A stretch of DNA of 56,403 nucleotides from Klenkia terrae. GTDB taxonomy: Bacteria; Actinomycetota; Actinomycetes; Mycobacteriales; Geodermatophilaceae. The stretch spans positions 2,189,892 through 2,246,294 of the forward strand of contig NZ_UEXK01000004.1 in NCBI RefSeq assembly GCF_900491935.1, written 5' to 3'. The position numbers and the translations under genes are program-made. Positions 3,190 to 20,757 of the stretch are shown piece after piece (the stretch's first letter is position 1; each line of letters begins with the position of its first letter). The notes under the pieces are model-generated. The model ran no database searches and was not told where the DNA came from. It saw only the letters and a program-made list of their open reading frames with translations.

Positions 3190-3286
3190 CCGGCCATGTC
3201 CCAGGGGCCCCGTGCGCGCGCAGCGCGTGCGGGGGAGTCGACAAGGCCGGTTGTCCCCAGAGCTGTGCACAGGTTGGGGAGACCGG

Positions 3287-3301
3287 ATCCCCATGTCGAC
3301 C
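3287..3301 (+). repeat. Origin-region repeat, copy 1
   Basis: ATCCCCATGTCGACC, identical to the copy at 3434-3448; the last 13 nt recur in the gyrB-gyrA spacer (13786-13798). The first half resembles a degenerate DnaA box (ATCCCCA against ATCCACA) and the second half contains the GTCGAC palindrome. Confidence 0.7.
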
Positions 3302-3433
3302 GCCTCCGTACCCAGCTTCTCCCCGGGTCCGTCCCCCGGACGGGTGTGCTGGGGACGGACCCGGGGGTCCAGGCGGGAGAGAGGGTGGACCAGGGGTGGA
3401 GCGGGGCGGTCGCCGGTGGACGGGAGCCGATTC

Positions 3434-3448
3434 ATCCCCATGTCGACC
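3434..3448 (+). repeat. Origin-region repeat, copy 2
   Basis: Exact second copy of ATCCCCATGTCGACC, 147 bp downstream of copy 1 in the same spacer and orientation. Its left flank (GGAGCCGATTC) also matches the flank of a DnaA-box-like site at 20440 (GGAGTCGATTC). Confidence 0.7.
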
Positions 3449-3735
3449 CCAGGTGGACGGTCACCGGCCCACACCGTGCGAACAGGCCCCCACCGGCCCT
3501 GACCTGCGCCGACGGCCTCGGTCCCCAGTACCCACACCTGTGATGACGGTGATGAGCTATCTCTTCCCAGGAGTTCTCGAACCACACCCTGGGTGTGCAG
3601 GCCCGGTCGACGAGTCGATCCGGGGAGCAGCAGGGCAGCGGTGGGGTCGGGGAGGGGCATTCGACGGCAGCCCCTGCGGCAGGGGAGACTGACCGCCGCA
3701 GGAGAGCCGGACGACGAGCAGGGGTGGACGACGAG

Positions 3736-4878
3736 ATGAAGTTCCGGGTGGCACGCGAGGTGCTCGCCGACGCCGTGGCGTGGACGGCGCGCAGCCTGCC
3801 GCCGCGTCCGTCGGTCCCCGTCCTCGCCGGGATCCTGCTGGAGGTGCAGGGCAGCTCGCTGTCGGTCTCCGGCTTCGACTACGAGGTCTCCGCCCGCGCG
3901 GAGATCGACGTCAGCTCCACCGAGGACGGCCGTGCCCTGGTGCCCGGCCGACTGCTGGCCGAGATCACCCGGGCGCTGCCGCCGCACCCGGTGGAGGTCA
4001 TCGCGGAGGGTGCGCGGCTGGCGATCAGCTGCGGCAACGCCAAGTTCTCCCTGCCGACCCTGCCGGTGGAGGACTACCCCTCGCTGCCGTCGATGCCCTC
4101 GACCGCCGGCGTGGTGGACAGCGACGCGTTCGCCGAGGCGGTCGCCCAGGTCGCCGTCGCCGCCGGCCGCGACGACACGCTGCCGATGCTCACCGGCGTC
4201 CGGCTGGAGATCGAGGACGACCGGGTCACCCTGGCCGCCACCGACCGCTACCGCCTCGCCGTCCGCGAGTTCGCCTGGCGGCCGGAGACCTCCGGGCTGT
4301 CCGCGGCGGTGCTGGTGCCCGCCCGCACGCTGGCCGACGCCGCGAAGACGCTGACGAGTGGCCCCGAGGTCGTCCTCTCGCTGTCCTCGGGCGGGTCCGG
4401 CGAGGGCATCCTGGGCCTGTCGGGCAAGGACCGGCAGACCACGACCCGCCTGCTGGACGCCGAGTTCGTCAAGTACCGGGCGATCATGCCCAACGAGTCG
4501 GCGTCGCACGCCCTGCTGCCAGTCGGGTTGTTCACCGACGCGGCCAAGCGCGTGGCCCTGGTCGCCGAGCGCGGCACGCCGCTGCGCTGCGAGTTCACCC
4601 CCGGCCAGGTCACCCTGCGCGCGGGCGGCACCGACGACGACGGCCAGGCCGAGGAGAGCTGCGACGTCGACTTCGACGGCGACCCGCTGACCATCGGCTT
4701 CAACCCGACGTTCCTGCTCGACGGGCTGGCCGCGGTGCACACCGACCGCGCCCGGATGGACTTCACCAGCGCGCTCAAGCCCGCGGTGCTCTCCGGCCAC
4801 GAGGAGCCCGGGGAGGACGGGGTCGTCCGCCCCGGCTCCTACCGCTCCCTGATCATGCCGGTGCGGCTCCCGGGCTGA
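3736..4878 (+). CDS. dnaN: DNA polymerase III beta subunit (sliding clamp)
   Basis: 380 aa from ATG 3736 ([20 protein letters not shown]). It forms the ring-shaped processivity clamp that tethers DNA polymerase III and other DNA enzymes. Length and content fit the three-fold clamp repeat: [17 protein letters not shown] in domain 1, [14 protein letters not shown] and [12 protein letters not shown] in domain 2, and [17 protein letters not shown] leading to the C-terminal [13 protein letters not shown], the conserved peptide-binding tail. Upstream in-frame GTGs exist, but the family start MKFR decides. It sits between the candidate oriC and gnd; the spacer to gnd is 109 bp and includes a short GC hairpin. 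Confidence 0.97.
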
Positions 4879-4897
4879 CCCCGGCACCCGCCGCGCG

Positions 4898-4912
4898 GCC
4901 CCGGACCGGGGC
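4898..4912 (+). terminator. Short GC hairpin after dnaN
   Basis: GCCCCGG A CCGGGGC, a perfect 7-bp inverted repeat with a single-base centre, 20 bp beyond the dnaN stop. No T-tract follows. It could be a weak intrinsic terminator or attenuator, or chance in GC-rich DNA. Confidence 0.3.
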
Positions 4913-4987
4913 GAGCACGATGGGCACGACGACGCCGGAGGGCAGCGCAGCCTGCTCCGGGACGACACCGACTCGAGGAGAACCGCT

Positions 4988-5911
4988 GTGCAGCTGGGCC
5001 TGATCGGACTGGGCAAGATGGGCGGCAACATGGCCGAGCGCGTACGCCGCGCCGGCCACGAGGTCGTCGGCTACGACAACGCACCCGGCAAGCGGGACGT
5101 CGACAGCCTCGAGGCGCTGGTCGGCGCCCTGCAGGCGCCGCGCGTGGTGTGGGTGATGGTGCCCTCCGGCGACCCGACCCGGCAGACGGTCTCGGCGCTC
5201 AAGGAGCTGCTCGAGGAGGGCGACGTCGTCGTCGACGGCGGCAACTCCAAGTTCACCGACGACAAGATCCACGCCGACGACCTGGCCACCAAGGGCATCG
5301 GCTACGTCGACGCCGGCGTCTCCGGCGGCGTGTGGGGCCTGGAGAACGGCTACGCGCTGATGGTCGGCGGCTCGAAGGAGGACGTCGCCAAGGTCCAGCC
5401 CGTCTTCGACGCGCTGAAGCCGCCGGCGCCGCAGGACGAGACCGGTGCCTCGGTGCCCGGTGCGGGCTTCGTGCACGCCGGCCCCGTGGGTGCCGGCCAC
5501 TTCGCCAAGATGGTCCACAACGGCATCGAGTACGCGATGATGCAGGCCTACGGCGAGGGCTACGAGCTGCTGGCCGCCGTCGACCTGGTCGAGGACGTCC
5601 CCGGCGTCATCGCCTCCTGGACCCAGGGCACCGTCATCCGCTCCTGGCTGCTGGACCTGCTGGTCCGCGCGCTGCAGGAGGACCCGGGCCTGGACGACAT
5701 CACCGGCTGGGCCGCCGACTCCGGCGAGGGCCGCTGGACCGTCGAGCAGGCGATCGAGCACTCCGTCCCGATGCCGGCGATCTCGGCGTCGCTGTTCGCC
5801 CGGTTCTCCTCCCGCCAGGACGACAGCCCGACGATGAAGGCCGTCGCCGCGCTGCGGAACCAGTTCGGTGGCCACGCGGTCAAGGCCCGCGAGGTCGAAG
5901 ACCCCGCCTGA
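4988..5911 (+). CDS. gnd: 6-phosphogluconate dehydrogenase, short decarboxylating type
   Basis: 307 aa from GTG 4988, preceded by GAGGAGAA. It oxidises and decarboxylates 6-phosphogluconate to ribulose 5-phosphate with NAD(P)+. The Rossmann motif [10 protein letters not shown] (7-16) is at the N-terminus. [11 protein letters not shown] and [21 protein letters not shown] are substrate-site segments, and [13 protein letters not shown] contains the catalytic Lys174 and Asn178. This is the roughly 300-aa bacterial form rather than the 470-aa dimeric form. Placement between dnaN and recF is common in actinobacteria outside mycobacteria. The recF start follows the stop by 13 bp, suggesting cotranscription. 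Confidence 0.95.
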
Positions 5912-5924
5912 TGGGCCCCGCCCG

Positions 5925-7133
5925 TTGTACGTGAGACATCTCCAGCTGGGGTCCTTCCGCAGCTGGGAGTCCGTCGACCTGCCGCTGACGCCGGGTCCGA
6001 CGGTCTTCGTCGGCCGCAACGGCCAGGGCAAGACCAACCTGGTCGAGGCGGTCGGCTACCTGGCGACGCTGGGCAGCCACCGGGTGTCCTCGGACAACCC
6101 GCTGGTCCGGCACGGCGCCGAGCAGGCCGTCGTCCGGGCGGCGCTGCGCAAGGACGACCGGGAGCTCCTGGTCGAGGTGGAGATCAACCCCGGCCGGGCC
6201 AACCGGGTGCGGGTCAACCGCTCCCCGTTGCCCCGCCCGCGGGAGCTCCTCGGCCTGGTCAAGACGGTGCTCTTCGCCCCCGAGGACCTCGCGCTGGTCC
6301 GCGGCGACCCGACCGAGCGCCGCCGGTTCCTCGACGACCTGCTGGTCAGCCGCACGCCGCGGCTGGCCGGCGTCCGGTCGGACTACGAGCGGGTGCTCAA
6401 GCAGCGCAACGCCCTGCTCAAGACCGCGAAGCTGGCCCGCGGCGGGGCGATCGCGACGCTGGAGGTCTGGGACGGGCACCTCGCCGACCTCGGCGGGCAG
6501 CTGCTGGCCGCCCGGCTGCAGCTGGCCGCCGACCTGGACCCGCACGTCGGCGCGGCCTACGAGGGGGTCGCCGGCGAGGGCGCCGACCGGGCCCGGCTGG
6601 GCTACACCAGCACCGTGCCGCTGGCCGGCGACGGGACGGCGTTCCTGCCCGGCCTCGGCGTGCCCAGCGCGGCCGACCTCACCGCGGCCCTGGCCCGGCG
6701 GGTGGAGGAGCGGCGCAAGGAGGAGGTCGACCGCGGCGTGACGCTGGTCGGCCCGCACCGCGACGACCTGGTGCTGCACCTGGGCCCGGCCCCGGCGAAG
6801 GGCTACGCCAGCCACGGCGAGTCCTGGTCGTTCGCGCTGGCGCTGAAGCTGGCCTGTTTCGCGCTGCTGCGCGCCGACGGCGAGGAACCGGTGCTGGTGC
6901 TCGACGACGTCTTCGCCGAGCTCGACGCCGGCCGGCGCACCGCGCTGGCCGACGTGGCGCGGACGGCCGAGCAGTGCCTGATCACGGCCGCGGTGGCCGA
7001 GGACGTCCCGGTCGCGCTGCGCGGGACACGGGTGCAGGTGGCCGACGGGACGGCGACCGTGCTGCCGCCCGACGACGCACCGGCTGCGCTCGACCTGACC
7101 GGTGCGGCGGAGGACGCTGGGTCGCATGGCTGA
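5925..7133 (+). CDS. recF: DNA replication/repair protein RecF
   Basis: 402 aa, starting at TTG 5925 so that the protein begins [19 protein letters not shown], matching the family start M-Y-V-R-x-L. A GTG two codons later is the alternative; an earlier ATG at 5911 is out of frame. RecF is an SMC-like ATPase that helps load RecA at gaps. Walker A is GRNGQGKT (30-37); the family segments [30 protein letters not shown] and the Walker [16 protein letters not shown] are present. It follows gnd by 13 bp and overlaps the DUF721 gene by 8 bp, so these are one operon. Confidence 0.95.
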
Positions 7134-7635
7134 CCAGCCCGCGCAGCGGCCGTCGCGCCCCAGCGACATCGCCCGGGCCGCGCTGGACGCCGCCCGGGCC
7201 GCCTCGGCCGCCCGGCCCCGGCCCACCCGGCGACGGGTGGCCGGCCCCCGGCGGTCCTGGAGCGGGCCGCACCCGGGCGCCGACGACCCGCAGACCCTGG
7301 GTTCGCTGGTCGACTCCCTGGTCAGCGCGGAGGACTGGAGCGAGCGCACCAAGGTGGGCTCGGTGTTCGGCCGCTGGGACGCCCTGGTAGGCGCCGACAT
7401 CGCCGCGCACTGCGCGCCGCAGTCCCTGAGCGAGGGCGAGCTGACCGTGGTCGCGGAGTCCACGGCCTGGGCCACCCAGCTGCGGATGATGGCGCCGACC
7501 ATCCTGGGCAAGCTGCACAACCAGGTGGGCGGGGACGTCGTGACCCGGTTGCGCGTTGTCGGACCGACGGCACCCAGCTGGAAGAAGGGCCCGCGGACGG
7601 TCCGGGGACGCGGTCCGCGCGACACCTACGGCTGA
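7126..7635 (+). CDS. DUF721 family (DciA-like) protein
   Basis: 169 aa from ATG 7126, overlapping the recF stop. The N-terminus is Ala/Arg/Pro-rich (1-55). The conserved DUF721 part follows: [50 protein letters not shown] and [23 protein letters not shown]721 includes DciA, the ancestral helicase loader that delivers DnaB at the origin, and is the actinobacterial Rv0004 equivalent. Position directly after recF and close to dnaA supports a role in initiation. The DciA function is inferred from the family. Confidence 0.9.
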
Positions 7636-7678
7636 CCCGGCGCCCCCGAGTCCGACCCCCACCGAGAGAGAGCAGCAG

Positions 7679-8689
7679 ATGAGCACCCCCCGCGACGGCT
7701 CCGGCGGCTTCGACGACCGACCCGAGGACCAGCGCGGCTGGTCCGAGCCCTCCCACCTCGGCGACGGCTCCACCGGCTCCGACCGGCCGGCGGACCAGCC
7801 CGCCGACCAGCCCGCCGACCGCGCGGCGGACCGCGGGTGGGAGCCGCCGGGCTGGTCGCTGCCCGACGCCGCCCCCGACCGGCCGGCGCAGCAGCCCCCC
7901 GCCCAGGCGCAGCCGCCGGCGCAGGACTGGGAGGCCACCCCGCCGCCGGCCCCGCAGCAGGGGTGGGAGTCCCACCGCGCCGAGCCGCAGCAGTGGGACG
8001 CACCGCAGACGCACGAGGCGCCCCCGCAGGAGGAGAAGCGCGGCGGGGTCCTCGGTGGCCTGTTCGGCCGCGGCCCCCGCAAGCTCTCGGAGGTGCAGCA
8101 GCAGTTCCTCCCCAAGGGCGGCGGGTCGCAGGACCTCGCGGCGTGGGGCCAGGCCTACGGCTGGACGGCGTCGGACGGCACCGGCCCCGAGGACGCCGTC
8201 CTGGTGGAGCTGACCCGGTCGGCCCCGGTGCGCCCGGCGAAGTCCGAGGTGCCCAGCAACGTGCTGCGCGGCCGGGCCGACGGGCTGGACCTGGTGGCCT
8301 TCGACATCGTGTCCCCCTACGGCCGGGGCTGGGTGGCCACCCACGCGGTGACCGCGGCACCGGTGCTGGGCCAGCTGCCCGGTTTCCGGCTGACCCCCGC
8401 CCGGTTCTGGCGGCACGGCACCGGCGGGCCGCTGCAGCTGCCCAGCGGCGACCCCGAGTTCGACACCCGCTGGGGGCTGCTGGCCGCCGAGGACTCCCCG
8501 CAGCTGCGCCGGGTGGTCGAGGACCCGGTGGTCCGGCAGGCCCTGCTCGGCTCCGACGACGGCGACGAGCTGTGGTCGGCGGTCGGCTTCGTGGCCGCGA
8601 TCCGGCCCGACGGCCACCGCCCGCTCCTCGTCGAGCACCACGCCCGCATCCTCGCCGCGGTCGGCGCGGCCCTCGGCTCGCATCGGTGA
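7679..8689 (+). CDS. Conserved protein of unknown function with disordered N-terminus
   Basis: 336 aa from ATG 7679, preceded by GAGAGAGAG. Residues 1-120 are low complexity, rich in Pro/Gln/Asp/Trp, with tandem DQPADQPAD units. The ordered part starts near KRGGVLGGLFGRGPRKLSEV. It holds aromatic-rich segments (LAAWGQAYGWTASDG, FDIVSPYGRGWVATHAV, FRLTPARFWRHG, FDTRWGLLAAED, LWSAVGFVAAIRPDG). The F-x-x-R-W-x-L-x-A-x-D pattern resembles cytoplasmic DUF3137-like domains, but I do not claim membership. No signal peptide or membrane segment is seen. Its stop overlaps the GTG of the ABC transporter, so they are likely one operon, not part of the conserved dnaA-gyrB core. Confidence 0.7.
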   Translation: MSTPRDGSGGFDDRPEDQRGWSEPSHLGDGSTGSDRPADQPADQPADRAADRGWEPPGWSLPDAAPDRPAQQPPAQAQPPAQDWEATPPPAPQQGWESHRAEPQQWDAPQTHEAPPQEEKRGGVLGGLFGRGPRKLSEVQQQFLPKGGGSQDLAAWGQAYGWTASDGTGPEDAVLVELTRSAPVRPAKSEVPSNVLRGRADGLDLVAFDIVSPYGRGWVATHAVTAAPVLGQLPGFRLTPARFWRHGTGGPLQLPSGDPEFDTRWGLLAAEDSPQLRRVVEDPVVRQALLGSDDGDELWSAVGFVAAIRPDGHRPLLVEHHARILAAVGAALGSHR

Positions 8690-10446
8690 CCGCACCCCCG
8701 GTCGGGTCGGCCGGGCTGCGCGAGCTGCTCCCGCTGCTGCGCCCGCACCGGCGGGCGCTGGTCGCGGCCGCGGCGCTGTCCCTGGTGGCCGCCGCGGCCG
8801 CCCTGGCCCAGCCGCTGCTGGTCTCCCGGGTGGTCGACGCCGTCGGCTCCGGTGCCGCGCTGCTGCCCGGGGTGGCCACGCTGGTCGTCGTCCTGGTCGC
8901 CTCGGCGGTGCTCAGCGCCGGCCAGCAGTACCTGCTGCAGCGCACCGCCGAGGGCGTCGTGCTCAGCACCCGGCGCACGCTGGCCGACCGGCTGCTGCGG
9001 CTGCCGGTGGCCGAGTACGACCGGCGGCGCACCGGTGACCTGATGAGCCGGGTGGGCTCGGACACCACGCTGCTGCGGGCCACCGTCACCAGCGGCGTCG
9101 TCGAGGTGGGCGGCTCGCTGGTGCTGGGCATCGGCGCGCTGGTCGCGATGGCGCTGGTCGACGTGTGGCTGCTGCTGGTCACGCTGGCGTCGGTCTCGAT
9201 CGGCGTGGGGACCGCCATCGCGGCGGCCCGCCGGGTGCGGGTGCTGTCCCGGCAGGCGCAGGAGCAGGTCGGCGCGATGAGCGCGGCGGTGGAGCGGGCA
9301 CTGTCCGCCGTCCGCACCATCCGGGCCAGCGGCGCCACCGGCCGCGAGGTGGTCACGGTCGGCTCGTCGGCGGAGAAGGCCTTCACCGCCGGCGTCGCGG
9401 TGGCCCGGCTGCAGGCACTCGTCGCACCGGCCACCGGCATCGCGATCCAGGGCGCGTTCCTGGCCGTGCTCGGCGTCGGCGGCTACCGGGTCGCCAGCGG
9501 CGCGATCGGCATCCCCGACCTGATCGCCTTCATCCTCTACCTCTTCCTGCTCATCCAGCCGCTGGGCCAGGTCATCCGCGCCTACACCGAGCTGCAGACC
9601 GGGCTCGGTGCGCTGGCGCGGGTGCAGGAGGTGCTCTCGCTGGACCCCGAGGACGACGACCGGCCCGCCCGCCCCGGGACGACGACCGCGCCCCGGCTGC
9701 CCGCCGCCGGTGACCCGACCCCGCTGCTGGAGCTGCGCGGGGTCGACTTCGACTACCCCGATGGCACCCGGGTGCTGCACGACGTCTCGTTCTCGGTCCC
9801 CGCCGGGACCCGGACGGCGCTGGTGGGGCCCTCGGGTGCGGGCAAGTCCACGCTGCTCGCGCTGGTCGAGGGCTTCTACCCGCTCAGCGGGGGCAGCATC
9901 CGGTGGGCCGGCACCGACGTCCGCGACCTGCCGCGCTCGGTGCTGCGGGCCCGGATGGGCTACGTCGAGCAGGAGGCCCCGGTGCTGGCCGGCACCATCC
10001 GGGAGAACCTGCTGCTGGCCGCGCCGGACACCCCCGAGGCCGCGCTGCGGCAGGTGCTCGAGGACGTCGGGCTGACCCCGGTGGTCGACCGGTCCGAGCT
10101 GGGCCTGGACGTGCTGGTCGGCGACGACGGCGTGCTGCTGTCCGGTGGTGAGCGGCAGCGGCTGGCCATCGCCCGCTCGCTGCTGGCCCGGCCGGCGCTG
10201 CTGCTGCTCGACGAGCCGACCGCGAGCCTGGACGCCCGCAACGAGACCCTGCTCCGGCAGACGCTGGAGACCGCCGCGCGGGACCGGGCGCTGCTGGTGG
10301 TCGCCCACCGGTTGTCCACGGTCCGCGACTCCGACCAGATCGTGGTGCTGGAGGGCGGCCGGGTGGTCGCCGTCGGCACGCACGACGAGCTGGTGGAGAC
10401 CGACCCGCTCTACCGCGAGCTGGCCACCGCCCAGCTGCTGGTGTGA
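8686..10446 (+). CDS. ABC exporter, fused permease and ATP-binding protein
   Basis: 586 aa from GTG 8686, overlapping the previous stop as GTGA. This is a half-transporter with an N-terminal six-helix membrane domain (about 20-310) and a C-terminal nucleotide-binding domain. Walker A is GPSGAGKST (381-389), the signature LSGGERQRL, Walker B LLLLDEPTAS and the switch VAHRLST. MsbA/MdlB-type exporters work as dimers and move lipids, peptides or drugs; the substrate cannot be told. An acidic/Pro linker (DPEDDDRPARP) joins the domains. It sits between the DUF721 and gyrB genes, outside the usual core order, and converges on the SDR gene with a 10-bp gap. Confidence 0.93.
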   Translation: MTAPPVGSAGLRELLPLLRPHRRALVAAAALSLVAAAAALAQPLLVSRVVDAVGSGAALLPGVATLVVVLVASAVLSAGQQYLLQRTAEGVVLSTRRTLADRLLRLPVAEYDRRRTGDLMSRVGSDTTLLRATVTSGVVEVGGSLVLGIGALVAMALVDVWLLLVTLASVSIGVGTAIAAARRVRVLSRQAQEQVGAMSAAVERALSAVRTIRASGATGREVVTVGSSAEKAFTAGVAVARLQALVAPATGIAIQGAFLAVLGVGGYRVASGAIGIPDLIAFILYLFLLIQPLGQVIRAYTELQTGLGALARVQEVLSLDPEDDDRPARPGTTTAPRLPAAGDPTPLLELRGVDFDYPDGTRVLHDVSFSVPAGTRTALVGPSGAGKSTLLALVEGFYPLSGGSIRWAGTDVRDLPRSVLRARMGYVEQEAPVLAGTIRENLLLAAPDTPEAALRQVLEDVGLTPVVDRSELGLDVLVGDDGVLLSGGERQRLAIARSLLARPALLLLDEPTASLDARNETLLRQTLETAARDRALLVVAHRLSTVRDSDQIVVLEGGRVVAVGTHDELVETDPLYRELATAQLLV

Positions 10447-10456
10447 GGCCGCGGGG

Positions 10457-11353
10457 TCAGCCGGCCAGCGCGACCCGGACGGCGTCCTCGAAGCCCAGCC
10501 GCGGGGGCGAGCCGATCACCTCGGCCAGGTCGTCCTCGCCGGCGACCACGGTGTTGGCCAGCGACTCCACCAGCGAGCGGGCCAGGTCGCGGGACACCGG
10601 CGTGAGCAGGTCGATGCCCACCGCGGCCAGCGCCGCGCTGCGGATCGGCACCGGCAGGAAGCGGCGGCGGCCGAGGCCGGCGACCGCGGCGTACCGCTGC
10701 ACCAGCTCGGCGTAGGTCATCACGTCGGGACCGGCGACGTCGAAGGCCCGGCTGACCTCCGCCGGCAGGGTCGCGCACCCGACCAGCGCGGTGACCACGT
10801 CGACCAGCGCCACGGGCTGCACCCGGGTGCGCACCCAGTCCGGGGCGGGCAGCACCGGCAGCCGCTCGGTGACGTGCCGCAGCATCTCGAAGCTGGCCGA
10901 CCCGGCGCCGACCACGATGGCCGCACGGAGCACCGCCGTCGGCACTCCGGAGGACAGCAGCAGCGCGCCGACCTCCTCGCGGGAGCGCAGGTGGTCCGAC
11001 AGCGGCTCGTCCACCGGGCGGGGTCCGCCGAGGTAGACCAGCCGGCCGACCCCGGCCCGGCGGGCGGCGCGGGCCAGGCCGCGGGCGTGCGCCCGGTCGG
11101 CGGCGGCGAAGCCCGGACCGGCGTCCAGGGCGTGGACCAGCCAGTACGCGGTGTCGACCCCGGTGCAGGCCCGGGTCAGCGCGTCGTCGTCCGCGGCGTC
11201 GCCGACGACCACCCGCACGTCGGGCAGCCACGGCCGGTCGGCCAGGCGGTCGGCGTCCCGGGTCAGGACGGCGACCTCGTGGCCGGCGGCGAGCAGGGCG
11301 GGGACGAGGGCTCCGCCGACGTGGCCGGACGCGCCGGTGACCAGGCTGTGCAC
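10457..11353 (-). CDS. NAD(P)-binding SDR/NmrA-like epimerase family protein (paralogue 1)
   Basis: 298 aa from GTG 11353 (VHSLVTGASGHVGGALVPAL). The start is a choice: the frame continues upstream to 11431 through the parS-like palindrome, but the nucleotide-binding strand should begin near here. GASGHVGG is the glycine-rich dinucleotide motif. DTAYWLVHALD and RLVYLGGPRP are typical of the atypical SDR group with DUF2867-like relatives. No Tyr-x-x-x-Lys catalytic pair is evident, so it may be a redox sensor or ligand-binding rather than a dehydrogenase. It is clearly paralogous to the protein at 20758-21705 (shared YxLVHxLD, YLGGxxx, HLRSRxxVxxLL, VLRAxIVVGxG). The two lie either side of gyrB-gyrA. 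Confidence 0.85.
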   Translation of the reverse strand: MHSLVTGASGHVGGALVPALLAAGHEVAVLTRDADRLADRPWLPDVRVVVGDAADDDALTRACTGVDTAYWLVHALDAGPGFAAADRAHARGLARAARRAGVGRLVYLGGPRPVDEPLSDHLRSREEVGALLLSSGVPTAVLRAAIVVGAGSASFEMLRHVTERLPVLPAPDWVRTRVQPVALVDVVTALVGCATLPAEVSRAFDVAGPDVMTYAELVQRYAAVAGLGRRRFLPVPIRSAALAAVGIDLLTPVSRDLARSLVESLANTVVAGEDDLAEVIGSPPRLGFEDAVRVALAG

Positions 11354-11366
11354 CGCTGCAGTGTGC

Positions 11367-11382
11367 GGTTCCACGTGGAACC
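11367..11382. promoter_or_regulatory. parS-like centromere site 1
   Basis: GGTTCCACGTGGAACC, a perfect 16-bp palindrome. The bacterial parS consensus recognised by ParB is close to TGTTYCACGTGRAACA, so the 14-bp core GTTCCACGTGGAAC fits. It lies about 8 kb from the candidate oriC, just upstream of (or within the extreme 5' end of) the SDR gene. parA/parB are not in the window; they usually lie beyond yidD/yidC, past the left edge. An identical core occurs at 40506. Confidence 0.75.
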
Positions 11383-11548
11383 GCGCCCCCGAGCGGCGGT
11401 GGCCCGAGGCACTCACCGGCGACCACCCCACGGGGCCGAGGAACTGAGTTTCGTCGGCCGGGGCAACACCGGTGGTGGTCGAGGTCCTCCTGGTGCGTCA
11501 GGGGTGACCTCAGGGCGTGGACGGCGCCTCCTGGGTCGATGGACCCGG

Positions 11549-13701
<2,153 letters not shown>

Positions 13702-13844
13702 CGGGGCGATCCGGGCTGATCCGGGTCCCGGTGGACGGTGTGGTAACCCACCGTCCACCCGCCCGCCACTCGGACGTCGTCCCAACCCCATGTCGACCTG
13801 GGGTTTTGTCCACCGCTGTGCACTGACCTGTGGAGAACTGAACC
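13702..13844. promoter_or_regulatory. gyrB-gyrA spacer with DnaA-box-like site
   Basis: 143 bp. TTGTCCACC (13806-13814) is one mismatch from TTGTCCACA; CCTGTGGAG lies just before the gyrA GTG. CCCCATGTCGACC (13786-13798) is the same 13-mer found twice in the dnaA-dnaN spacer. It may carry a gyrA promoter, but no convincing -35/-10 pair is visible. A link between DnaA and gyrase expression would be an inference. Confidence 0.45.
13786..13798 (+). repeat. Origin-region repeat, copy 3
   Basis: CCCCATGTCGACC, identical to the last 13 nt of the repeats at 3287 and 3434. It is followed by TGGGG, giving a short interrupted inverted repeat CCCCA...TGGGG around GTCGAC. Confidence 0.65.
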
Positions 13845-16331
13845 GTGACGGAGACCCCGAGCCGCGACCGCATCGAACCGGTCGACCTGCAGGAGGAGAT
13901 GCAGCGCAGCTACATCGACTACGCGATGAGCGTGATCGTGGGCCGCGCGCTCCCCGAGGTGCGCGACGGCCTCAAGCCGGTGCACCGCCGCGTGCTGTTC
14001 GCGATGTACGACCAGAACTTCCGGCCCGACCGCGGGTACGTGAAGTGCGCGCGACCGGTCGCGGAGGTCATGGGCAACTACCACCCCCACGGCGACACCG
14101 CGATCTACGACGCCCTGGTCCGGCTGGCCCAGCCCTGGTCGATGCGCTACCCGCTGATCGACGGGCAGGGCAACTTCGGCTCGCCGGGCAACGACCCCGC
14201 GGCCGCCATGCGCTACACCGAGTGCCGCCTCACGCCGCTGGCCATGGAGATGCTGGCCGGCATCAACGAGGAGACCGTCGACTACCAGGGCAACTACGAC
14301 GGGCGCACCGAGGAGCCCGTCGTCCTCCCCGCCCGGGTGCCGAACCTGCTGATCAACGGCTCGGCCGGCATCGCCGTCGGCATGGCCACCAACATGCCCC
14401 CGCACAACCTGCGCGAGGTGGCCGAGGCCGTCTACTGGATGCTCGACCACCCCGAGGCCCCCGCCGAGGAGGCCCTCACCGCGTGCATGGAGCGGGTCAA
14501 GGGCCCGGACTTCCCGACCCACGGCCTGATCGTCGGCCGCGACGGCATCGAGGACGCCTACCGGACCGGCCGCGGCTCGGTGCGCATGCGCGCCGTCGTC
14601 GCCGTGGAGGAGGACTCCCGCGGGCGGGTGCAGCTGGTGGTCACCGAGCTGCCCTACCAGGTCAACCCGGACAACCTGGCCGAGAACATCGCCGAGCAGG
14701 TCAAGGACGGCCGGCTGCAGGGCATCTCCGAGATCGCCGACGAGTCCTCCGACCGCGTCGGCCGCCGGCTGGTCATCACCCTGCGCCGCGACGCCGTGGC
14801 CAAGGTGGTGCTGAACAACCTCTACAAGCACACCCAGCTGCAGACCTCCTTCGGCTGCAACATGCTCTCCATCGTCGACGGCGTGCCCCGCACGCTGCGC
14901 CTGGACGAGCTGGTCCGGTACTGGGTGATCCACCAGATCGAGGTCATCCAGCGGCGCACCCGCTACCGCCTGCGCAAGGCCGAGGAGCGCGCGCACATCC
15001 TGCGCGGCTACGGCAAGGCCCTCGACCAGCTCGACGAGGTCATCGCCCTCATCCGGGCCAGTGCCTCCGCCGACGCCGCCCGCACCGGGCTGATGGAGCT
15101 GCTGGAGGTCGACGACATCCAGGCGCTGGCCATCCTGGACCTGCAGCTGCGCCGGCTGGCCGCTCTCGAGCGCCAGCGGATCATCGACGAGCTGGCCGAG
15201 ATCGAGGCCACGATCGCCGACCTGCAGGCGATCCTGGCCGACCCCGAGCGGCAGCGGCGGATCGTCCGCGACGAGCTCAAGGAGATCGTCGACCGGTTCG
15301 GCGACGACCGGCGCACCCAGTTCGTCGCGCACGACGGCGACGTCTCCATGGAGGACCTCATCGCCGAGGAGCAGGTGGTCGTCACGATCACCCGCACCGG
15401 CTACGCCAAGCGCACCAAGGCCGACCTGTACCGGTCCCAGCGCCGCGGCGGCAAGGGCGTCATGGGCGCGACGCTCAAGCAGGACGACCTGATCCAGCAG
15501 TTCTTCGTGGGGTCGACCCACGACTGGATCCTGTTCTTCACCAACAAGGGCCGGGTCTACCGGGCCAAGGCCTACGAGCTGCCCGAGGCCGCCCGCACCG
15601 CCCGCGGGGCGCACGTGGCCAACATCTTGGCGTTCCAGCCCGACGAGAAGATCGCCCAGGTCATCCAGATCAAGGACTACGCGGTCGCCCCGTACCTGGT
15701 GCTGGCCACGGCGAACGGCCAGGTCAAGAAGACCCGGTTGACCGACTTCGATTCCCCGCGCAGCGGCGGCGTCATCGCGATCAACCTGCGCGACGGCGAC
15801 GAGCTGGTCGGTGCGGCGCTGATCGACCCCGAGCAGAACCTGCTGCTGGTCACCCGCAAGGCCATGAGCATCTGCTTCAAGGCCGACGACGCCCAGCTGC
15901 GCCCCATGGGCCGGGCGACCGAGGGCGTGCGCGGCATCTCGCTCACCGACGACGACCGGCTGCTGTCGATGATCGTGGTGACCGAGGGCGTCGACGTCCT
16001 GGTGGCGACCGAGGGCGGGTACGCCAAGCGCACCGGCATCGAGAACTACCCGGAGCAGAACCGCGGCGGCAAGGGCGTGCTCACCGCCGACCCGAAGTCC
16101 CGCAAGGGCGTGCTGGTCGGTGCGCTGTCGGTCGTGCTCGGCGACGAGCTGTACGCCATCACCTCCACCGGCGGGGTCATCCGCACCCCGGTCAACGGCG
16201 TCCGGCACAACAAGGACCGGGCGACCATGGGCGTCAAGCTGATGAACCTGCCCGAGGACGTCTCGATCGTGGCCATCGCGCGGACGACTGACGACGAGGA
16301 GGTCGAGGTCGCCGACCCGACCTCGCTCTGA
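13845..16331 (+). CDS. gyrA: DNA gyrase subunit A
   Basis: 828 aa from GTG 13845 ([20 protein letters not shown]). It is the DNA breakage-reunion subunit. The active-site Tyr is Tyr124 in [10 protein letters not shown]. The quinolone-resistance region reads [20 protein letters not shown], with Thr where E. coli has Ser83 and M. tuberculosis has Ala90, and the Asp87-equivalent kept. The C-terminal beta-pinwheel carries the GyrA box QRRGGKGV plus repeated blades ([42 protein letters not shown]), which supports gyrase rather than topoisomerase IV. It ends with an acidic tail and is followed by a terminator hairpin. Confidence 0.97.
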
Positions 16332-16339
16332 CCCGGCAA

Positions 16340-16372
16340 GCCGTGCACCTTGCTCGACCGGGGGTGCACGGC
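16340..16372 (+). terminator. Terminator hairpin after gyrA
   Basis: A perfect 10-bp stem, GCCGTGCACC (16340-16349) with GGTGCACGGC (16363-16372) and a 13-nt loop, 9 bp beyond the gyrA stop. There is no T-run, as is common for actinobacterial terminators. Confidence 0.6.
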
Positions 16373-16558
16373 GTGCCGGTCGGTCAGTCGGGGCGGGATA
16401 GGCACCCCGGCGCCTAGGCTGGGGCGAATGCCGTCACCCGGTGCGGGTCGCGAGGTCCACCCGGGACGGCTGAGCGACCACCGATGTGCGGTCGCCACCC
16501 CACCGGGTGGCACCGGGCGCGACGGGGGCGGGAGACCGGCCCCGGGACGGAGAGCGGG

Positions 16559-17470
16559 ATGAGCGACCGGACCCAGTCCTCGGTGCGGACCGAGGACTCC
16601 TCGGCGGCAGCCGACCCCGAGACCGCGGCGATCACGCCCGACGAGCCGGCCCGGTCCTCGTCGGCGCCGGCCGCCGGCGCGAAGGGCGCCCCGGCCACCG
16701 CGCCGGGCTGGGGCGGTGCGACCCCGAGCAAGCAGAACCCGGCCAAGGGCGCCGGCGGGCAGAAGCCCGCCCAGCAGGCCCCGCCGGCCGGTCAGGCCCC
16801 GGCCGGGCCCACGCAGCCGGCCGGCAAGCCGGCCCAGCAGTCCGGCCGACCGGCCGGCAACGGCCAGCCCGCCGGTGCACGTCCGGCCGGCCAGCGCCCG
16901 GCCGCGGCCGCCGGTGCCACCGTGGGTGCGGCCCGCCAGGGTGCTCCGCAGACCGGGGCCCGCCCGGCCAACCGGGCCGCCGCCGGTGCGCCCCGGCCCG
17001 CGACCGACCGGCCCCCGTCGGTCGTCGCCCGCGCGGCCGAGGGTCGTGGCCCGGAGTCCGCCGAGGGCGAGCGGCCCAGCGGCAAGGTGCGCGGCTCCGG
17101 TCGCGGACCCCGCCGGGCCCGCCTGCAGCTGCGGCACATCGACACCTGGTCGGCGCTGAAGATCTCGCTGGTGCTGGCCATCGCGCTGTTCTTCGTGTGG
17201 ATGGTCGCCGTCGGCGTCCTCTACGGGGTGCTCAACGGCCTCGGCGTGTTCACCACCGTCAACGACCTGATCGGCCAGCTCGGCTCCAGCTCCGGGGACG
17301 CCGGCCCGACCGACGTCATCACCCCCGGCATCGTGTTCGGCGGCGCGGCGGTCATCGGTGCGGTGAACATCGTGCTGTTCACCGCGCTGTGCACCGTGGG
17401 CACGTTCGTCTACAACCTGTGCGCGGACCTGGTCGGCGGCCTCGAGGTCACCCTGTCCGAGCGCGACTAG
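16559..17470 (+). CDS. DUF3566 membrane protein with long disordered N-terminus
   Basis: 303 aa from ATG 16559. Residues 1-185 are low complexity, rich in Ala/Pro/Gly/Gln. From about 190 comes the conserved part: RRARLQLRHIDTWSALKISL, a membrane segment (LVLAIALFFVWMVAVGVLYGVL), VFTTVNDLIGQL, then a second hydrophobic segment (FGGAAVIGAVNIVLFTALCTVGTFVYNLCADLVGGLEVTL). This is the DUF3566 layout and the Rv0007 position immediately after gyrA. Function is not established; such proteins are inner-membrane proteins with a cytoplasmic disordered arm. It precedes tRNA-Ile by 59 bp. Confidence 0.9.
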   Translation: MSDRTQSSVRTEDSSAAADPETAAITPDEPARSSSAPAAGAKGAPATAPGWGGATPSKQNPAKGAGGQKPAQQAPPAGQAPAGPTQPAGKPAQQSGRPAGNGQPAGARPAGQRPAAAAGATVGAARQGAPQTGARPANRAAAGAPRPATDRPPSVVARAAEGRGPESAEGERPSGKVRGSGRGPRRARLQLRHIDTWSALKISLVLAIALFFVWMVAVGVLYGVLNGLGVFTTVNDLIGQLGSSSGDAGPTDVITPGIVFGGAAVIGAVNIVLFTALCTVGTFVYNLCADLVGGLEVTLSERD

Positions 17471-17510
17471 CCGGCCGGACCCCGCGCGGCGGCGCCGCAC
17501 GAGGTCCAGG

Positions 17511-17516
17511 TATGGT
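17511..17516 (+). promoter_or_regulatory. Candidate -10 element for tRNA-Ile
   Basis: TATGGT, 13 bp upstream of the tRNA 5' end and so well placed for a -10 with a very short leader. The -35 region is GC-rich without a recognisable hexamer. Confidence 0.35.
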
Positions 17517-17529
17517 TTCCGAGGTTCAC

Positions 17530-17603
17530 GGGCCTGTAGCTCAGACGGTTAGAGCGCATCCCTGATAAGGATGAGGCCGGAGGTTCAAGTCCTCCCAGGC
17601 CCA
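17530..17603 (+). tRNA. ileT: tRNA-Ile (anticodon GAT)
   Basis: 74 nt cloverleaf. Acceptor stem GGGCCTG pairs with CAGGCCC; TAGCTC begins the D arm. The anticodon stem CATCC/GGATG encloses loop CTGATAA with anticodon GAT at 17564-17566. The T arm is GGAGG-TTCAAGT-CCTCC. Discriminator A is followed by CC but not an encoded CCA. It is the Rv equivalent ileT, next to gyrA as in mycobacteria. Confidence 0.97.
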
Positions 17604-17638
17604 CCGTGCACCGCTCGACGGCGAGGAGGTCGGCACCC

Positions 17639-17779
17639 GTGCTGAAGAAGGTCGCCGTGGCGGCACTGGCCGCAGGGGCACTGCTGGCCCTGCGCAAGCG
17701 GTCGGCAGCCCAGATCGACGAGGACCTGTGGGCCGAGGCCGCCCGCAGCCCCGACGCCGTCCGCACGACCCAGCGCTAG
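17639..17779 (+). CDS. DLW-39 family small protein
   Basis: 46 aa from GTG 17639: a basic start (VLKK), a short hydrophobic helix (VAVAALAAGALLAL), then RKRSAAQIDEDLWAEAARSP. The Asp-Leu-Trp followed by Ala-Glu-Ala is the hallmark of the DLW-39 family, tiny actinobacterial proteins encoded near gyrA and tRNA-Ile. GAGGAGG lies 11 bp upstream, a very strong ribosome site that supports translation. Probably a single-pass membrane peptide; function unknown. It lies between two tRNA genes on the same strand. Confidence 0.85.
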   Translation: MLKKVAVAALAAGALLALRKRSAAQIDEDLWAEAARSPDAVRTTQR

Positions 17780-17805
17780 ACCCGGTGGTGCCCGCACCGC
17801 CTCCC

Positions 17806-17878
17806 GGGGACGTAGCTCAATTGGTAGAGCACCGCCTTTGCAAGGCGGGGGTCAGGGGTTCGATTCCCCTCGTCTCCA
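17806..17878 (+). tRNA. alaT: tRNA-Ala (anticodon TGC)
   Basis: 73 nt. Acceptor GGGGACG pairs with CGTCTCC. The anticodon stem CCGCC/GGCGG encloses loop TTTGCAA with anticodon TGC at 17839-17841. The T arm is AGGGG-TTCGATT-CCCCT. Discriminator A; CCA is not encoded. It immediately precedes a lipoprotein gene with an unclear start. Confidence 0.97.
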
Positions 17879-17880
17879 CA

Positions 17881-18432
17881 GCGTCCCGGTGGTCCGCCGT
17901 CCCGGTCCTGGCCCTGCTGCTGGCCGGTTGCGGCACCTCGACCACGGACGAGCCGGCGGCGTCGTCGAGCGCACCGGCCAGCACGGCCGCGACCAGCGCC
18001 CCTGCCCCGCCGACCAGCAGCGCAGCGGTGCCCGCCGAGCCGGTGACCACCAAGCAGGACTGCCCCTACCTCGACACCGCCTTCGTGCAGGACACGGTGG
18101 GCCAGCAGACGCCCACCGTCACCACCACCGGGGTCCCCGGCGGCCCGCCGCCGGGCTGCACGTTCGCCAAGCCGAACGGGGAGCCGGCGCTGACCGTCGA
18201 GATCACCCAAGCCGCGGACGGGGTCGCTGCGCGCACCGCCGCCGTCGAGCGGGTGGCCGGCATCGGCGGCACGGCGGTCACCGACATCGCCGACGGCGGG
18301 GGGATCGCCGTCGGCACCGGCCAGACCGTGCTCGCCGTCGCCGACGGCACGCTCGTCGTCGTGGTGACGGTCAACCAGGAATCCAGCCTGCAGGCGCGCG
18401 AGATCACCCAGACCGTCGTCGCCGCGGTCTGA
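17881..18432 (+). CDS. DUF2020-like lipoprotein, start unresolved
   Basis: Lipobox LLLAGC (Cys codon 17929-17931) follows a hydrophobic stretch (VPVLALLLAG). Next is a Ser/Thr/Ala/Pro linker, then CPYLDTAFVQDTVGQ...PPGCTFAKPNGEPALTVEI...QTVLAVADGTLVVVVTVN, a secreted DUF2020-like domain with a probable disulphide pair. The problem is the start: between the tRNA-Ala 3' end and the lipobox the frame has no ATG, GTG or TTG. A GTG at 17889 is out of frame, yet loss of one base just after it would give VVR-VPVLALLLAGC, an ideal signal peptide. A base error, a true 5' mutation or a rare start (CTG) are all possible. Coordinates give the open frame after the tRNA. Confidence 0.65.
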   Translation, partial: ASRWSAVPVLALLLAGCGTSTTDEPAASSSAPASTAATSAPAPPTSSAAVPAEPVTTKQDCPYLDTAFVQDTVGQQTPTVTTTGVPGGPPPGCTFAKPNGEPALTVEITQAADGVAARTAAVERVAGIGGTAVTDIADGGGIAVGTGQTVLAVADGTLVVVVTVNQESSLQAREITQTVVAAV

Positions 18433-18475
18433 GGCGGGTCGGCAGCCCATCGCCGCAGGTGGGACGATGGGGGGC

Positions 18476-19009
18476 GTGACCGAATCGACTCCTGCGCGGC
18501 GCGCAGTCCTGCACACCAACCACGGCGACATCACCGTGGACCTGTTCCCGGACCACGCCCCCAAGACCGTCGCCAACTTCGCCGAGCTCGCCGAGGGCAG
18601 CCGCGAGTGGGTGGACCCCCGTACCCGGGCGAAGACCACCGACAAGCTCTACGACGGCACGATCTTCCACCGGGTCATCGACGGCTTCATGATCCAGGGC
18701 GGGGACCCCCTCGGCCAGGGCACCGGCGGCCCCGGCTACCGCTTCGGCGACGAGTTCCACCCCGACCTGCAGTTCTCCAAGCCCTACCTGCTGGCCATGG
18801 CCAACGCCGGGCCGGGCACCAACGGCTCGCAGTTCTTCATCACCACCACCAACACCCCGCACCTGAACAACAAGCACACGATCTTCGGCGAGGTGGCCGA
18901 CGACGCCTCCCGCCAGGTCGTCGACGCCATCGGCAAGGTCCCCACCGCCCGCGGTGACAAGCCCCTCGAGGACGTCGTGATCACCTCGGTCGAGGTGCAG
19001 CGCAGCTGA
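18476..19009 (+). CDS. ppiA: Peptidyl-prolyl cis-trans isomerase, cyclophilin type
   Basis: 177 aa from GTG 18476 (VTESTPARRAVLHTNHGDI); an ATG three codons upstream at 18467 is an alternative. Cytoplasmic cyclophilin that speeds proline isomerisation. Active-site segments are visible: FHRVIDGFMIQGGD (catalytic Arg, Phe, Met and Gln), the AMANAGPGTNGSQFFIT core, and the NNKHTIFGEV His region. It has an insertion after LAEGSREW common to actinobacterial PpiA. It is the Rv0009 counterpart; its stop overlaps the proposed CTG start of the rhomboid gene. Confidence 0.95.
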   Translation: MTESTPARRAVLHTNHGDITVDLFPDHAPKTVANFAELAEGSREWVDPRTRAKTTDKLYDGTIFHRVIDGFMIQGGDPLGQGTGGPGYRFGDEFHPDLQFSKPYLLAMANAGPGTNGSQFFITTTNTPHLNNKHTIFGEVADDASRQVVDAIGKVPTARGDKPLEDVVITSVEVQRS

Positions 19010-19881
19010 GCACCACCGACGGACCCGGGGGTGCGGGCGCCCAGCCCGCGCCCCCGGCCACCACCTGCTACCGGCACCCCGACCGGCCGACCCGGATCTC
19101 CTGCGTCCGCTGCGGCCGGCCGATCTGCCCGGAGTGCATGAACCCCGCCTCGGTCGGCTTCCAGTGCCCCGAGGAGCTCGCCGACGCCCGACGCACCGTG
19201 CGGACCCCCAAGCGCACCACCGGCGTGCGGGTCGCCGGCAAGCGCTGGGGCCCGGTCACCCTCGTGCTGGTGGCCATCAACGTCGCGGTCGGCATCGCCA
19301 CCGCGGTCGCCGCGCTGGTGTCCGGCGGCAACCCGGTCAACTCGTTCAACTCACCGCTGACCAGCGAGCTGCTCAGCGCCCCCGTCCTGGTCGACCAGGG
19401 CGAGTGGTGGCGCGTGGTGACCAGCGCCTTCACCCACGCCAGCATCCTGCACCTGGCCCTGAACATGCTCGCCCTGCTGCTGTTCGGCTCCGAGCTCGAG
19501 CGCCTGCTGGGCAAGGGCCGCTACCTGACCGTCTACCTGGTCTCCGCCCTCGGTGGCGCCGCTGCCCTGCAGCTGTTCGGTGCCTACCTGGGCGGGGTCG
19601 TCGGTGCCTCCGGTGCCATCTACGGCCTGCTCGGTGCCTTCGGCGTCGTGCTGCTGCGGCAGAAGCAGGACCTGCGCGGCCTGCTCACCCTGCTGGCGAT
19701 CAACCTGGTGATCAGCTTCCTGCCCGGCGTCTCGCTGCTGGGGCACCTGGGTGGCCTGGTCGCCGGTGCGGTGACCGCCGTCGTCCTGCTGTGGGCCGGA
19801 CAACGCCGGGTGCTGGCCGTCGCCGGGGTCGCCGCCGTGGTGGCCGTGCTGCTCGTGCTGACCTTCGGCGGCCTGCGCTAG
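19006..19881 (+). CDS. Rhomboid family intramembrane serine protease with N-terminal Zn-ribbon
   Basis: 291 aa if it starts at CTG 19006, which overlaps the ppiA TGA as CTGA in the manner of ATGA/GTGA couplings. The in-frame ATG at 19138 would cut a cysteine-rich N-terminus (TCYRHPDRPTRISCVRCGRP, then ICPECM) that is conserved in actinobacterial rhomboids, so I prefer the upstream start. About six membrane helices follow. The catalytic dyad is Ser202 in GASGAIYG and His247 in GHLGG; FTHASILHLALNM is the family's His/Asn oxyanion segment. Substrates unknown. Confidence 0.9.
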   Translation: MSTTDGPGGAGAQPAPPATTCYRHPDRPTRISCVRCGRPICPECMNPASVGFQCPEELADARRTVRTPKRTTGVRVAGKRWGPVTLVLVAINVAVGIATAVAALVSGGNPVNSFNSPLTSELLSAPVLVDQGEWWRVVTSAFTHASILHLALNMLALLLFGSELERLLGKGRYLTVYLVSALGGAAALQLFGAYLGGVVGASGAIYGLLGAFGVVLLRQKQDLRGLLTLLAINLVISFLPGVSLLGHLGGLVAGAVTAVVLLWAGQRRVLAVAGVAAVVAVLLVLTFGGLR

Positions 19882-19891
19882 ACCTGCCGCG

Positions 19892-20290
19892 CTACACCGG
19901 TCGGTGCCCCAGGAGCTGGGCGCCGACCTGCTCCGGGTCGGTCCCCAGGTCCCGGCGGCCGAGCACCAGCAGCACCGCGTCGTCGCCGGTGTCCTCCAGC
20001 TCGAGCGTGGTGCTGCGCATCCCGAGCCGTCGGCCGGTGCGCACCCGGGCCCGCAACCGCTCCCGGGGGATGACCGTGCGCCCGCCCAGGGTGGCGACGA
20101 CGACCTGCGCCTCGTCGGCCAGCAGGCGCGGCCTCAGCACCAGGTCCCGCACGACGACGGCGACCAGCAGCAGCGTCGCCGCGCCGAGCAGCACCCGGCC
20201 CGGGGTGTCCACCAGGAGCACGCCGGCCCCCAGGACGACGGCCACCGCGGCGGCCACGAACGTCTCGCCGGGGCGGGTCGACCAGTGCAC
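19892..20290 (-). CDS. Bacterial PH domain protein (Rv0010c-like)
   Basis: 132 aa from GTG 20290 (VHWSTRPGETF), chosen because GGAGGA (20301-20306 on the minus strand) lies 10 bp upstream; the frame itself stays open further upstream. Two membrane-spanning segments (VAAAVAVVLGAGVLLVDTPG, VLLGAATLLLVAVVVRDLVL) precede a PH-like beta domain (EAQVVVATLGGRTVIPRERL, TTLELEDTGDDAVLLVLGRR, DLGTDPEQVGAQLL). It matches Rv0010c in sequence style and position between ppiA and crgA. Function unknown. It runs opposite to the rhomboid gene. Confidence 0.8.
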   Translation of the reverse strand: MHWSTRPGETFVAAAVAVVLGAGVLLVDTPGRVLLGAATLLLVAVVVRDLVLRPRLLADEAQVVVATLGGRTVIPRERLRARVRTGRRLGMRSTTLELEDTGDDAVLLVLGRRDLGTDPEQVGAQLLGHRPV

Positions 20291-20757
20291 CGGGCCAGCT
20301 TCCTCCACACCGTCCACCTGGTTGTCCACAGGGCGGGGTGTCGACACCGGGACGCGCCGTCCGACCTCGGCGTTCGTGCTCCCGGCCACCGTCCGGACAC
20401 GCCCGGTGACCGCCCCCGGGACGGGGTGGTCACGGTCGCGGAGTCGATTCGTCCACACCTGTGTGCACAGGTGGGGACAGAAGAACAGGGATGTAGTTAC
20501 GCCGGTGCGCCTGGCGTCCCACCCGTCACAGCCGGGGCGGAACCGCAGGTCAGCAGCCGGTCGACCGGTGCGCTCCCTCCACACTCGGTGGACAAACCTG
20601 GGGGCGGTCGGTCACCGCCGTTGTGGATCAGGTCGTCGTCCTGTGCACACGTCGGGGACGGACCGGGCGGCCCGCAGTGGTCGACATCTCGACACCGACC
20701 GGACCGGTTCGTCGCACTCGGGCTGCGGGGTGGCCCGCGAACCCGGACGCTGGACGG
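20291..20757. promoter_or_regulatory. 467-bp spacer with DnaA-box cluster
   Basis: No gene seen. Contains the only perfect TTGTCCACA noted in the window's spacers (20322-20330), plus one-mismatch TCGTCCACA (20449-20457) and GGTGGACAA on the opposite strand (20587-20595), TGTGGATCA (20622-20630; reverse complement is one mismatch from TTATCCACA), and a CTGTCCCCA variant (20472-20480, opposite strand). An ACCTGTG...CACAGGT imperfect palindrome surrounds 20464. GGTCGACAT (20679-20687) is the reverse complement of the core of the dnaA-dnaN repeats. It also holds the divergent promoters of the PH and SDR genes. Confidence 0.55.

Follow-up and report, generated by a model that had tools for sequence, protein, structure and literature searches.

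A conserved, position-fixed element in the dnaA-dnaN spacer of Geodermatophilaceae, a candidate paired DnaA site

Results

An origin-biased motif and its copies within the genus

The DNA analyzed here (the window) is a stretch of 56,403 nt from Klenkia terrae, whose genome assembly comprises 4.81 Mb in 23 contigs. It carries dnaA (1483-3189, plus strand) and dnaN (3736-4878, plus strand), and the subject of this study is a short element in the spacer between these two genes, that is, in the replication origin (oriC). The 13-nt motif CCCCATGTCGACC is present in exact form at 3289-3301, 3436-3448 and 13786-13798. As the original prediction had stated, all three copies lie in spacers (two in dnaA-dnaN, one in gyrB-gyrA), and the 15-mers that contain the dnaA-dnaN copies begin at 3287 and 3434. 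In the following, copy 1 is ATCCCCATGTCGACC (3287-3301, plus strand), copy 2 is ATCCCCATGTCGACCCCAG (3434-3452, plus strand), and "genus" and "family" are those of the window genome.

The whole genome contains four exact copies of the motif, three of which fall in a 10.5-kb part of the window, whereas the fourth is inside an open frame of 570 aa; the reversed motif, which served as the control in the genome and draw counts, was found 0 times. The 14-mer TCCCCATGTCGACC has exactly two genomic copies, both of them in the dnaA-dnaN spacer. Thus, the exact motif is origin-biased, as had been anticipated, and the count revealed no unbiased multitude of copies. With four exact copies only, the possibility that the motif is a genome-wide repeat was rejected. 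When up to two mismatches were allowed, the 14-mer matched 91 scattered places in the genome, compared with 54 for the control, and therefore the signal sits in the exact copies. For the window alone, eight matches with up to two mismatches were found versus 4.47 expected, a number equalled in 6 of 100 shuffles, which is not convincing. Exact 13-mers also occur in 28 genomes outside the genus. These were rejected as relatives of the motif because the 21 loci checked, one from each of 21 of the 28 genomes (three of which had a second match), all lay in open frames of at least 255 aa.

Nine genomes of the genus were used for motif counts, eight of which entered the alignment of the dnaA-dnaN spacers, and the ninth (G007) was read separately. 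Both dnaA-dnaN copies are present in all nine genomes, copy 1 exactly in nine and copy 2 exactly in seven, with A replacing T in copy 2 of G004 and G007. Copy 1 corresponds to 14 invariant columns of the alignment, TCCCCATGTCGACC, which are also present in the ninth genome, and copy 2 reads TCCCCA[T/A]GTCGACCCCAG, whereas the flanks of the copies diverge. The conservation in related genomes that the original prediction proposed as a check was thus borne out for the genus, with the 13-mer present in 9/9 genomes and no loss seen. Next to copy 1 lie two DnaA boxes (3252-3271, plus strand), namely, TGTCCCCA at 3252 and the palindromic TGTGCACA at 3264, which are found at the same place in five and in all eight of the aligned genomes, respectively.

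The surroundings of the copies show some further features. Copy 2 is flanked by direct repeats CGGTC[A/G]CCGG (3407-3416 and 3458-3467), and similar repeats are present there in the genus alignment. In two species, the dnaA-dnaN spacers L155 and L156 contain long extra DNA (spacers of 917 and 986 bp, compared with 521-617 bp) and have an additional block resembling GTCACCGGCCC..GTCCACACC ahead of copy 1; L155 also carries repeats of GGGCGCTTCTCGTC.

A wider element of the family at a fixed distance from the presumed unwinding region

Toward dnaN, the spacer of the window contains twin DnaA-box-like sites, GTCCCCA and CCCACAC (3521-3537, plus strand), at what would be the edge of the unwinding region. 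They are followed by the conserved, three-base-periodic stretch GTGATGACGGTGATGAG (3540-3556, plus strand), which is DnaA-trio-like and presumably the start of unwinding. In the same interval, GTGATGACGnnGATGA (3540-3556) ranks with the best-conserved sequences of the family origins, and in several other actinobacterial spacers inspected by eye, two TCCACA-like sites precede ATGACGA or a similar sequence.

For the family, dnaA was located in 107 of 112 genomes, and dnaA regions were taken from 80; together with the window, this yielded 81 spacers from 12 genera. In seven other genera, TCCACnTGTCGACA is present in 66/66 dnaA-dnaN spacers, in 64 of them exactly as TGTCCACGTGTCGACA, and its TGTCGACA begins 99 bp (65 spacers) or 98 bp (one spacer) before the TGATGA of the presumed unwinding region. 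When the spacers were anchored at the element, this 16-mer ranked first among 175 positions of a 190-bp core (65 rows, genus-weighted), with 1.99 bits per column compared with a median of 1.35, and when they were anchored at TGATGA, it ranked second of 175 (66 rows), with 1.89 bits versus 1.91 for the anchor stretch itself. In the window genus, TGTCGACC of copy 2, which begins at 3441, starts 100 bp before TGATGACG (3541 in the window) in 9/9 genomes, and the sequence at the place of the family element is [AG]TCCCCATGTCGACC. Because it occupies the same spot, copy 2 stands in place of the TGTCCACGTGTCGACA of the family. The only genome of genus g5 has TCTCCACTGGTCGACCCC there, and the six spacers from three deep-branching genera of the family lack TGTCGACA.

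The distribution was assessed in two wider draws of genomes. In the order draw (298 genomes, 51 of the family and 247 others), TGTCCACGTGTCGACA was found in 42 of the 51 family genomes, once in each, and in 0 of the 247 genomes outside the family, with 0 matches for the reversed control; the nine family genomes without it were eight of the window genus and g5. In the class draw (394 genomes, two of the family), one of the two family members matched, and the single match outside the family was discarded because it lies inside an open frame of 359 aa. The element thus keeps a fixed position, and as far as genomes were searched, its family form is restricted to the family. That it is a real conserved element is virtually certain. 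Searches of the open literature with the 8-mer together with DnaA, with the 9-mers and the 14-mer, and with the family name together with oriC gave no description of it among the matches listed.

In a tree of DnaA and DnaN, the window genus grouped with g9 and g5 (SH-aLRT 99), among genera that carry the element, although the tree was a quick build with long-branch warnings. Because of this placement, the genus form of the element looks derived. Both copies in the genus carry the same derived sequence, as would be expected of inherited repeats without a function of their own that gene conversion between neighboring copies has homogenized, and the secondary nature of the change in the tree agrees with this. 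Nevertheless, the copies remain fixed while their flanks diverge, and the family element equals the presumed unwinding stretch in its degree of conservation, so that we regard such passive repeats as very improbable.

The two halves of the element

In its commonest family form, the element can be written as two 9-mers, [T/A]TGTCCACG and TGTCGACA[A/C], that is, a DnaA box and a variant box placed head to head with a gap of 0; because TGTCGACA is a palindrome, it can be read on either strand. The left half is TGTCCACG or TGTCCACA in the other genera and [AG]TCCCCA in the window genus. It closely matches TTGTCCACA or an origin-enriched variant of it, with a partial match in 6/9 species of the window genus; TTGTCCACA serves as the high-affinity DnaA box in M. 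tuberculosis and S. coelicolor (PMC4285127). In the right half, TGTCGAC[A/C], one base (TGTCGACA) or two bases (TGTCGACC) differ from a DnaA box. The earlier description of the motif as a degenerate DnaA box joined to GTCGAC therefore captured both parts, the left half being a box or near-box and the GTCGAC part being kept in the family, mostly as TGTCGACA.

Among the one-base neighbors of TGTCCACA in the 81 spacers, TGTGCACA, TGTCGACA and TGTCCCCA exceeded the Markov expectation 30.6-, 25.7- and 16.0-fold, followed by TATCCACA (16.1-fold, six sites), TGTACACA (14.1-fold, nine sites) and TGTCCACG (9.3-fold), compared with 13.0-fold for TGTCCACA itself and 0 to 3.8-fold for the remaining neighbors. 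TGTCGACA occupies 82 places in 66 of the 81 family spacers, and TGTGCACA, likewise a palindrome, 69 places in 66 spacers. TGTCGACC, with two mismatches to the box, reaches 4.3 times the expectation in the family.

The left half also changes between genera in the manner of a DnaA box. In 7 of the 18 spacers of g9, the nearest large genus, an upstream copy has the sequence GTCCACATGTCGAC, in which CCACA corresponds to the CCCCA of the window genus, and two g9 species have CCGTGTCCACATGTCGACCC where G004 has CCGTGTCCCCATGTCGACCC, a single change between two enriched box forms. Its sequence and these changes alike mark the left half as a DnaA box, and it is very probably a site at which DnaA binds. 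A changed specificity of DnaA was considered as the cause of the genus version and rejected, because the 12-letter DNA-recognition segment is the same in 81/81 compared DnaA sequences and the last 125 residues are letter-identical in two rows of the window genus and four of g9. The right half would be either a weak DnaA site or the site of another protein, with binding by DnaA slightly favored.

The gyrB-gyrA spacer and the spacer at 20291-20757

The third exact copy of the motif lies in the near-palindrome AACCCCATGTCGACCTGGGGTT (13784-13805) of the gyrB-gyrA spacer. Among seven readable genomes of the genus, this copy is exact in two, which are close species, has one mismatch in three and two mismatches in one, and is missing in one. 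In the other genera, TGTCGAC was found in none of the 63 readable gyrB-gyrA spacers within the 40 bases looked at, and the same spacers contained TGACC in 12 cases (TTGACC in six) and GTCGAC in four. The gyrB-gyrA copy taken by itself is thus a weak link between the spacers and is probably a chance or promoter-related match, which would be compatible with a DnaA-related function of the copies in oriC. This explanation fits its exact retention in just two of seven genomes and its absence from the other genera; it fits less well with the five of seven genomes that have at most one mismatch, and with the DnaA-box-like site TGTCCACC that begins 16 bp after the TGTCGACC of this copy in the window.

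In many of 70 spacers upstream of gyrA, inspection by eye showed an inverted pair of DnaA-box-like sequences, T[T/A]TGTCCACC..CTGTG[C/T]A...AC[C/T]TGTGGAGA (13800-13844 in the window), and from this arrangement a link of DnaA to gyrase expression appears possible.

The spacer at 20291-20757 is rich in DnaA boxes. It contains TGTCCACA at 20323, TGTCGACA at 20339, TGTGCACA at 20462 and 20642, TGTCCCCA at 20472 on the minus strand, and GGTCGACAT at 20679, the last being the reverse-complement core of the motif, located where the original prediction had placed it. This spacer could be read in six of the nine loci of the genus (the other three were in the opposite orientation), and GGTCGACAT is kept in three of the six, including the window. 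In the window, TGTCCACA, TGTCCCCA and TGTGCACA together occupy eight places, all of them in the rpmH-dnaA, dnaA-dnaN and 20291-20757 spacers (genes assigned by eye). Ten sites with TGTCCACAGGTCGACA were found in the matching region of the genera g4 and g11, eight of which align to the spacer of the window and two of which were placed by their flanking genes; because they were picked among the matches listed, they show occurrence and not frequency. The sites in these two genera lend support to the broader proposal of a common design among the separate origin-side spacers. A second proposed similarity between the dnaA-dnaN spacer and this one, 15 of 18 identical nucleotides, was confirmed by eye, although its first 18-mer begins at 3423 rather than 3424. 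This similarity is not conserved throughout the genus: in the more distant species, letters other than GGAG..CGATTC precede copy 2.

Within the third spacer, the genomes of the genus retain the sequence GAGTCGA[C/T]T..TCCACACCTGTGTGCACAGGTGGGGACAGAAG.ACAG...TAGTTAC (20433-20500). In this interval, the 21-mer that surrounds TGTGCACA was present, with at most one mismatch, in 8/8 genomes of the genus in the draw and in 0/43 other family genomes, and six of the 247 other genomes of the order had it at two mismatches. The interval looks like a second DnaA-box module near oriC, perhaps combined with a promoter.

Discussion

Our preferred explanation, to which the sequence comparisons incline us without making it secure, is that the motif is a lineage-specific paired DnaA site in oriC. 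DnaA would bind the box half and also, with lower affinity, the variant half, and the bound pair would anchor the DnaA assembly 99-100 bp (some 9.5 turns of the helix) away from the twin boxes and the unwinding stretch next to dnaN. A second anchoring point, on the same helical face, would be supplied by the upstream copy. The explanation draws on the conservation and fixed spacing of the pair in the other genera, the enrichment of the box variants, the single change between g9 and G004, and the TGTCCACAGGTCGACA sites in a second spacer rich in DnaA boxes. The distances between the copies are 43 bp in g4 and g11, 125-126 bp in g9, and 146, 147, 155, 156, 168 and 179 bp in the window genus. In favor of this explanation, the distances, taken as six length classes, fit a helical period of 10.4-10.5 bp (resultant of 0.86-0.89; p about 0.003-0.005), with 10.4 as the best period in a scan of 6-15 bp. 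In 13 spacers of g4 and g11 (e.g., L165 and L166), a further [CA]ACATGTCGACT, with a box-like end joined to TGTCGAC, follows the core pair after 43 bp.

Several observations weigh against the paired DnaA site. The pairs for the helical-phase test were chosen after the data had been seen, and with all site pairs, p was 0.02-0.04 (in the latter test, 167 was used for a pair spaced 168). In 6/9 species of the genus, both copies lack the TG with which the box begins, and therefore the left half should be weakened in these species; in addition, the genus version is devoid of most of the dyad symmetry. Two 9-mers without a gap may not accommodate two DnaA molecules at once. Furthermore, TGTCGACA is only the 16th of all 8-mers by places and the 21st of 307 by ratio, and TGTGCACA the 30th by places. 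TGTCGACA is thus not outstanding among the 8-mers, because many stretches of these origins are conserved. Finally, among 77 readable dnaA-dnaN spacers of other bacteria (out of 80 named loci), TGTCGACA was found in one, which a family-specific partner would explain better.

Such a partner, which the original prediction had raised as a possibility, would be a dedicated protein of the family that reads the TGTCGAC palindrome and, placed against the DnaA box, helps or blocks DnaA. The enrichment of TGTCGACA in family origins and the restriction of the 16-mer in the order draw to genomes of the family both point in this direction, and the imperfect dyad symmetry of the 16-bp stretch would suit a dimeric regulator. 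Across 112 family genomes, the dyad TGTCSACNNGTSGACA was counted 146 times, compared with two occurrences of its reversed control. About 55 of these, an estimate among the matches listed, are outside oriC, which is some excess over the roughly 33 per control spacing; three other spacings served as this control, giving 100 occurrences together and 11 for their reversed control, with places read in part of the genomes. In addition, regulators that compete with DnaA are described in PMC4285127. Yet no protein presents itself for this role, and the dyad is only modestly overrepresented outside oriC, where about 11 of the excess sites belong to one origin-side spacer and no regulon became apparent. 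In 66/66 origin copies, the left half has C where the right half has G, and the genus version is conserved despite the loss of most of the symmetry. We consider a dedicated factor rather unlikely; what speaks for it is chiefly the near-restriction of the right half to the family, together with some excess of the dyad outside oriC. Still less probable, in our judgment, is the more specific version in which a family protein reading TGTCGAC beside the DnaA box gates DnaA assembly, with site and protein having changed together in the window genus.

The element can be compared with several known systems. Like other actinobacterial oriC boxes (TTGTCCACA), its left half is a box or near-box in the dnaA-dnaN spacer among other boxes, and the DnaA recognition segment is conserved within the family; unlike in those origins, the box here directly abuts TGTCGAC[A/C], and the position of the pair is fixed. 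The parS site was compared by eye and does not fit the motif. DnaA-box clusters away from oriC, of the datA type, are known, and the spacer at 20291-20757, some 17 kb away from oriC, is likewise such a cluster; any part of it in DnaA titration or inactivation would be hypothetical. The sites of AdpA, CtrA and Spo0A that overlap DnaA boxes, and the MtrA boxes in oriC, share with the element a second, non-standard half adjoining a DnaA box; by eye, however, the consensus sequences given in PMC4285127, TGGCSNGWWY for AdpA, GTCACAGCG for MtrA and TTAA-N7-TTAA for CtrA, do not match TGTCGACA. The basal unwinding system of B. subtilis consists, according to PMC8287927 and PMC10721633, of twin DnaA boxes followed by DnaA-trios with the consensus 3'-GAT-5'. 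A block resembling it, with twin box-like sites and then a periodic stretch, lies 99-100 bp downstream of the element, but the element itself is outside this block, and the periodic stretch, inspected by eye, departs from 3'-GAT-5'.

Unrelated bacterial origins share little beyond scattered DnaA boxes. In this family, a 14-bp pair that is fixed relative to the presumed unwinding region (66/66, with one exception of 1 bp) would offer a precise target for studying how DnaA assembly is positioned. The natural replacement of the element in one genus, with the recognition segment of DnaA unchanged, provides a comparison that may tell a DnaA site from the site of another protein.

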